Source: Lysobacter sp. ISL-50 (GTDB taxonomy: Bacteria > Pseudomonadota > Gammaproteobacteria > Xanthomonadales > Xanthomonadaceae). Taken from it: a stretch of DNA of 64,000 nucleotides. Of the stretch, positions 3,494 through 3,799 are shown in pieces; positions within the stretch are counted from its first letter, which is position 1; each line of letters begins with the position of its first letter. The stretch is taken from NCBI RefSeq assembly GCF_018612875.1, contig NZ_JAGGRI010000017.1, positions 206,846-270,845 on the forward strand, in the 5' to 3' direction. The notes under the pieces were generated by a model. That model was not told the DNA's origin, did no database searches, and worked only from the letters and a program-made list of their open reading frames with translations. Position numbers and translations under genes: made by a program.

Positions 3494-3799
3494 TTAGCCA
3501 CCCCGTAGCCGCAGTACGAGGTGAATCGTCTCCTCCTTCTCGATCGCATAGTCGCTCAGGGTTCGGCCGTCTTCCATCTGCTTTCCCTTGGCGATCAAGC
3601 GCTGTTGGTCTGGCGGAATCCCTTCACTGTCCTGGATCTTGGCTTTTACATTTTCAATCGAATCGGACGACTCCACTTCAAGAGCGATCGTCTTTCCGGT
3701 CAGGGTTTTTACATGAAGGGGGAATGCGTGCGACGACCACGAGGCCATCAGCAACACAAGTGCGGCCAGGTAGATCAGCGGACGGAAAGTCGTTGTCAT
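3494..3799 (-). CDS. Exported ubiquitin (signal peptide plus complete ubiquitin ending in LRLRGG)
   Basis: 101 residues. A classical Sec signal peptide (residues 1-25, hydrophobic core LIYLAALVLLMASW, cleavage site SHA|FP) is followed by exactly 76 residues that align without gaps to eukaryotic ubiquitin. By eye 61 of 76 positions match human ubiquitin. K6, K11, K27, K29, K48 and K63 are present, K33 is Ser, and the L8/I44/H68/V70 hydrophobic patch is intact. F4 is His and F45 is Ala. The protein stops directly after the C-terminal LRLRGG. The ATG at 3799 is favoured over a TTG at 3817 because AAGAAGAGG lies six bases before it. The gene lies 66 bases downstream of a secreted propeller protein on the same strand. 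No E1, E2, E3 or deubiquitinase gene is in the window. Its base composition looks lower in GC than its neighbours, consistent with transfer from a eukaryote. The function, probably periplasmic or extracellular, is unknown. Confidence 0.95.
   Translation of the reverse strand: MTTTFRPLIYLAALVLLMASWSSHAFPLHVKTLTGKTIALEVESSDSIENVKAKIQDSEGIPPDQQRLIAKGKQMEDGRTLSDYAIEKEETIHLVLRLRGG

Follow-up and report, generated by a model that had tools for sequence, protein, structure and literature searches.

Ubiquitin proper is regarded as a protein of eukaryotes, BfUbb of Bacteroides fragilis being the curious exception. At the locus described here, a bacterial gene encodes a predicted exported ubiquitin whose conjugation end is intact. 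The gene lies in a stretch of 64,000 nucleotides from Lysobacter sp. ISL-50 (hereafter the window), which corresponds to positions 206,846-270,845 of contig 9 in a genome of 5.9 Mb that is 99.35% complete.

The gene is located on the minus strand (3494..3799), as an open frame from ATG to TAA encoding 101 residues that match the ubiquitin family in Pfam (PF00240, E 2e-27, 95.2 bits against a cut-off of 25.4), a score by which the likeness is not due to chance. A TTG codon 18 bases upstream of the ATG would add six residues if used as start. The first 25 residues, MTTTFRPLIYLAALVLLMASWSSHA, constitute a predicted Sec signal peptide (3725..3799, minus strand), which is hydrophobic and ends in SHA. 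Cleavage at SHA|FP, a site assigned by eye, would release a mature ubiquitin of 76 residues (3497..3724, minus strand, from alignment and an AlphaFold model), in which LRLRGG is followed at once by the stop codon. The HAFP motif at the predicted site is kept in the ubiquitins of another Lysobacter species (G006) and of Jeongeupia naejangsanensis.

Identity was counted against a human ubiquitin sequence that matches PDB ubiquitin over residues 3-76. By this count 61 of the 76 mature residues are those of human ubiquitin, and the AlphaFold model (mean pLDDT 89) aligns with most of the best-matching solved ubiquitins at a TM of about 0.95. What marks ubiquitin proper is thus present, i.e. the family match, a 76-residue beta-grasp with an LRLRGG end, and K48 and K63. 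The sequence-only reading had described an exported ubiquitin of processed length without naming a strand, and that description was borne out. The same reading had K48, K63 and the I44 patch as kept, which holds for K48, K63, L8, I44, H68 and V70 (K6, K11, K27, K29, R42 and R72 are likewise unchanged), but some of the 15 changes relative to human went unmentioned: substitutions affect the F4 patch (Q2P, F4H, T14A), K33 is gone (K33S), and the residues right after I44 are replaced (F45A, A46K). A bacterial beta-grasp modifier of the ThiS or MoaD kind was considered and rejected, given the leader and the match to the ubiquitin family rather than to small bacterial beta-grasp families, and neither a ThiF-like nor a JAB domain was seen in a Pfam scan of six proteins encoded nearby. 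Searches of the Lysobacter genome for E1 and E2 enzymes gave no match, but their controls matched nowhere either. The G+C content is 0.546 in the ubiquitin gene and about 0.60 over window positions 1-12000, as against 0.67-0.69 in three loci elsewhere in the same genome.

An artefact or eukaryotic contamination might also produce such a gene, and one of the bacterial bins encountered here (L005) does hold a eukaryotic-looking polyubiquitin that is likely of this kind. For the window we give this explanation practically no credence. The leader is fused in frame, the contig is long and the neighbours are ordinary bacterial genes; furthermore, G006, a genome of this genus assembled as a single contig, has a ubiquitin gene 90% identical to that of the window, and the gene and its partner recur in 11 DNA backgrounds (see below). 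Absence from an independent assembly would have spoken for contamination, and the G006 copy settles that point. Matches were obtained in two of 149 genomes searched, the source genome included. The mature ubiquitins of the window and G006 differ with dN 0.048 and dS 0.71, and four of the six codons for LRLRGG differ silently.

The ubiquitin gene does not stand alone. It is the second gene of a two-gene unit, a feature which the sequence-only reading, otherwise partly supported, had not noticed. The first gene (3866..4975, minus strand) encodes a predicted secreted beta-propeller of 369 residues, likely six-bladed and without Pfam match, and its stop codon is separated from the ubiquitin ATG by 66 bases (3800..3865, minus strand). 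The two genes likely share one transcript, as judged from their arrangement, and no sigma-70-like site was found in 3200-5600. The partner model resembles extracellular ligand-binding propellers. Use outside the cytoplasm, as proposed earlier for the ubiquitin, fits the predicted leaders of both proteins.

At the DNA level the stretch common to the window and G006 (80% identity; 3488..4996, minus strand) comprises the two-gene unit alone. Outside the unit are a chorismate-binding, isochorismate synthase-like enzyme (1828..3150, minus strand) and a subtilase with S8 and P domains and an uncertain start codon (5537..7495, minus strand). An 80% identical copy of the former gene is present in G006, about 616 kb from the pair; since neighbouring genes have thus moved as well, the flank comparison between the window and G006 is by itself weak evidence of mobility. 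A Pfam scan of six neighbouring proteins gave no sign of a prophage around the pair.

We define the propeller-ubiquitin pair by a propeller gene directly upstream of ubiquitin on the same strand, as in the window. It was found in 11 DNA backgrounds: the window, G006, J. naejangsanensis, seven genomes from a different family within the window's order (G716, G732, G768, G738, G736, G847 and G836) and one phage contig (L154). Gene order and strand are the same in all 11, and every ubiquitin has a leader as judged by eye. The order-wide search covered 398 genomes with four leader-bearing ubiquitins as queries and gave matches in 11, the source genome included; in a class-wide sample three of 369 genomes, again including the source, had a ubiquitin match. 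Within the family of G716, nine of 233 genomes matched, and seven of the nine encode propeller plus ubiquitin. G546 and G661 have leaderless ubiquitin-like genes (L171 and L172; 76% and 52% identical to human over the matched part) without partner and without GG. Three more genomes of the order (G621, G634, G657) have ubiquitins with a leader, without terminal GG and without partner in the DNA examined. A protein search added no bacterial copies, polyubiquitins and other eukaryotic proteins being among the matches listed.

The copies vary in their closeness to human ubiquitin. Those of G716 and G768 are each identical at 75 of 76 positions, followed by the phage copy (72/76), G847 (71/76), G736 (66/76) and G006 (61/76, as in the window), while the Jeongeupia protein has 66 identical residues when one inserted Gly is left out. 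The GG end is intact in eight of the 11 copies. The other three lack RGG, with a stop at codon 74 that is TGA in G732 (L168) and G836 (L179) and TAG in G738 (L169); they match human at 70/73, 68/73 and 70/73 positions, respectively. Each of them has a GG-bearing relative in its own genus (G716, G768 or G736), so that RGG loss recurs within genera that also have GG-ended copies, and pairwise dN and dS, considered without a formal test, gave no sign of relaxed divergence in the shortened copies.

Little is resolved in the ubiquitin trees, where eight of 91 inner branches are starred. Window and G006 group with support 100/98, and 92/85 when Jeongeupia is added; the AU test does not reject a clade joining these three to the phage copy (p-AU 0.759), and in the tree concerned the phage copy falls closest to ubiquitins of fungi and plants.

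A scan of viral contigs found ubiquitin at seven loci, one of which (L139) includes the partner. In its 15.7 kb record (L154) the pair is on the strand opposite to the phage-like genes, and of 13 further frames that were tested, 11 gave matches to phage families (baseplate, tail fibre, tail fibre assembly, head or DarB-like); the two without such a match are a cyclophilin and a frame of 96 residues. The mature phage-borne ubiquitin is identical at 75 of 76 positions to P0252, a sequence named as Auriculariales, which is a fungal order. Together with the two relatives at 75/76 to human, this gives good support to the eukaryotic origin that had been proposed for the gene. The partner on L154 is identical to P0136, which stands for eight member sequences on two contigs; the window's own partner, used as query against viral contigs, gave no match. 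Another viral-contig search yielded nine loci, which were examined except for L183, L187 and L188, and a search of phage records for ubiquitin gave no match. Two plasmid records matched, annotated as a ubiquitin family protein (a gene of 741 bases) and as an Ig-like domain protein. On the mobilizable plasmid pRUMAL01 of Ruminococcus albus 7 (L103) a ubiquitin-domain gene is accompanied by a phospholipase gene and by small genes without known function.

The cyclophilin-type isomerase gene of L154 (2471-3007) adjoins the pair. The target of BfUbb is reportedly a peptidyl-prolyl isomerase, and a link between the two was considered; it was set aside as chance, because no cyclophilin gene is near the pair in the window's genome (G000) or in G006.

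Does the pair travel as such? Flanks were compared among ten chromosomal loci by same-strand translated matches above 60 bits and 150 bases, the G836 locus being a 5.6 kb contig, and 43 of the 45 comparisons showed no flank in register. The two others are G768-G738, with long flanks in common, and G736-G836, with a short upstream stretch in common; in the remaining comparisons the pair alone is common, except for isolated out-of-register matches. At these filters, then, the pair stays together without its flanks, from which we conclude that it likely moves between bacteria as a unit, as the DNA comparisons suggest. Its taxonomic spread and the phage copy support the same conclusion.

The partner has a history of its own. 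Relatives at 51-55% identity are encoded by four congeners (G002, G004, G008 and G014), in whose genomes no ubiquitin was found, and that of G002 is 96% identical to a protein named as from Lysobacter enzymogenes. At two loci of congeners (L092, L093) a frame upstream of such a ubiquitin-less propeller gene encodes a small protein that contains Cys and whose beginning resembles a leader. In the partner trees the ubiquitin-bearing partners fall into more than one clade and are interspersed with metagenome proteins.

Comparison of the copies at codon level demonstrated strong constraint on the ubiquitin of the pair. Between G716 and G768, ubiquitin identity across 73 codons is 97% with synonymous sites saturated, and the partners are only 62% identical. 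Between G716 and G732 the ubiquitin has dN 0.030 and dS 0.94, as compared to 0.157 and 0.89 for the partner. Near-identical proteins in spite of saturated synonymous sites indicate a bacterial gene held close to the eukaryotic sequence, as would be expected if its product had to bind a eukaryotic partner. Separate captures from eukaryotes could leave the same pattern, but are less favoured within the one family because the leaders are alike and the partner is common to the copies.

Exported ubiquitins occur well beyond the pair, and the citation of B. fragilis as precedent in the sequence-only reading proved too narrow. Relatives are encoded at 117 loci in genome contigs, 80 of which were listed and examined; with L005 left out of the domain scan, 79 proteins remain. 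A leader was assigned by a simple rule to 67 of these, mostly with ubiquitin directly after it, and 77 run at least 30 residues past the ubiquitin domain. The tails comprise 24 autotransporter barrels, five SLH, three T9SS, one PEP-CTERM and one LPXTG, as well as IPTL-CTERM in five (Pfam) or seven (NCBIfam) proteins. Apart from Jeongeupia none of the 79 ends in GG, the standalone ubiquitin of a Pedobacter (L006) ending in LVLR. On the basis of these predicted leaders and anchor tails, exported ubiquitin likely recurs among bacteria as an extracellular domain, mostly bound to the surface and lacking the terminal GG.

What, then, is the GG-ended ubiquitin of the pair for? The action 'against eukaryotic prey' or as a 'decoy' that was suggested earlier belongs to what we infer. 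Our preferred reading, to which we tentatively assign a probability of about 0.4, is a secreted mimic that would engage the proteins by which neighbouring eukaryotes, for instance fungi or protists, handle ubiquitin. Export would proceed via Sec and then perhaps a type II system, and a type II secretin gene is present in the same genome (551.7 bits). Ubiquitin and propeller would then be set free outside the cell, the propeller could serve as binding or delivery partner, and the ubiquitin would have to be taken up by the target cell, for which no entry route into eukaryotic cells is known. Once inside it might act by occupying the target's ubiquitin-binding proteins or enzymes, and in GG-ended copies the E1 of the target may contribute further by charging it. 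Charging is unlikely to be the whole function since three of 11 copies are without the last three residues; judging from these genes, function is probably possible without conjugation in some hosts. Against the mimic speak the position of the window copy among the two most diverged (61/76), with a changed F4 patch and changed residues after I44, the partner relatives without ubiquitin in four congeners, and the fact that BfUbb, the sole tested secreted bacterial ubiquitin found, is described as acting on bacteria (PMC5705921). A bolder version, which is unlikely, sees in the pair a mobile and once phage-carried weapon, in which the propeller would serve for binding and delivery and bring authentic ubiquitin that can be charged into the cells of fungi or protists. 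Where some lineages have lost RGG, the ubiquitin would have become a pure competitor, and BfUbb would descend from this same pair in decayed form.

The main rival, somewhat unlikely in our view, takes its cue from BfUbb and regards the ubiquitin as an antibacterial protein directed at competing bacteria, which it would enter or contact so as to inhibit a target of theirs, with GG dispensable. According to the available text of PMC5705921 and PMC3352274, BfUbb is secreted, starts in its mature form at ubiquitin residue 1, lacks GG and is inhibitory to certain strains within its species, and the three pair copies without RGG agree with this. However, BfUbb has drifted (63% identity to human, Cys end) where pair copies reach 75/76, and such identity would go unexplained if the target were purely bacterial. 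The truncated propeller gene near BfUbb may be unrelated, given that other beta-propeller genes adjoin that locus. Alternatively, the ubiquitin might have no tie to ubiquitin enzymes and be a small stable exported domain that binds its propeller, a bacterial surface or the matrix. The many bacteria in which anchors are fused to ubiquitin (79 proteins scanned) and the conservation of the partner in all 11 backgrounds are in line with that idea. It is nevertheless quite unlikely, since a mere scaffold would drift, and it is the partner that drifts (62%, G716-G768) and not the ubiquitin; moreover, GG ends are found in eight of 11 pair copies against none of the 77 proteins continuing past ubiquitin. 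Finally, extracellular ubiquitin peptides inhibit fungi (PMC10892293), and proteases might cut out the basic C-terminal end of a precursor to yield a peptide that kills fungi and bacteria. At 4-30 uM, residues 65-76 are described as inhibitory to fungi and yeasts and to a few bacteria, and a subtilase gene adjoins the pair in the window, but the same source gives 100 uM as inactive against five other bacteria and terms full-length ubiquitin weak, as far as its available text goes (PMC10892293). With the whole domain conserved rather than the tail alone, and no matching subtilase flank seen at the other pair loci, this explanation is highly improbable. The locus matters in that bacteria here carry a predicted exported ubiquitin with its conjugation end intact, strongly constrained and in two copies differing from human at a single residue, as part of a pair that is likely mobile and once found in a phage contig. 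The occurrence of copies with and without RGG in the same genera makes two questions testable: conjugation versus mere binding, and the use of real ubiquitin against eukaryotes.

Among the best-ranked literature matches, subscription papers and preprints being outside that scope, there was no propeller-ubiquitin pair, no GG-ended secreted bacterial ubiquitin and no phage-carried ubiquitin; in the available part of the Jeongeupia paper (PMC10455584) the single 'ubiquitin' concerns protein turnover in general. With eukaryotic ubiquitin the window copy has in common its sequence, fold, LRLRGG end, K48 and K63, but it has a bacterial leader and no fusion precursor, and K33 and the F4 patch are changed. 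The ubiquitin effectors of plant-parasitic nematodes likewise consist of a signal peptide and ubiquitin secreted towards another organism, as described in PMC5705921, but their producer is eukaryotic and they have a C-terminal extension of 12 residues. The anchor-fused ubiquitins of many bacterial phyla (L003-L081) share the arrangement of leader mostly followed directly by ubiquitin, yet have C-terminal tails, no terminal GG and no propeller partner in the DNA examined, whereas in the window the stop directly after GG leaves no room for an anchor or barrel. The closest known relative in design is BfUbb, a eukaryote-type ubiquitin regarded as horizontally acquired, in which the mature protein also starts at residue 1 after a signal peptide (PMC3352274, PMC5705921). 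A truncated beta-propeller gene is described beside it, numbered just before ubb, and other beta-propeller genes adjoin the locus in 97 of 97 B. fragilis genomes (PMC5705921); going by that description the truncated gene may be a remnant of the pair reported here. BfUbb is 63% identical to human and ends in Cys without the terminal glycines (PMC3352274), whereas the predicted leader of the window copy, by a cleavage site assigned by eye, gives way to a ubiquitin that runs from residue 1 to LRLRGG and is encoded next to a whole propeller partner.
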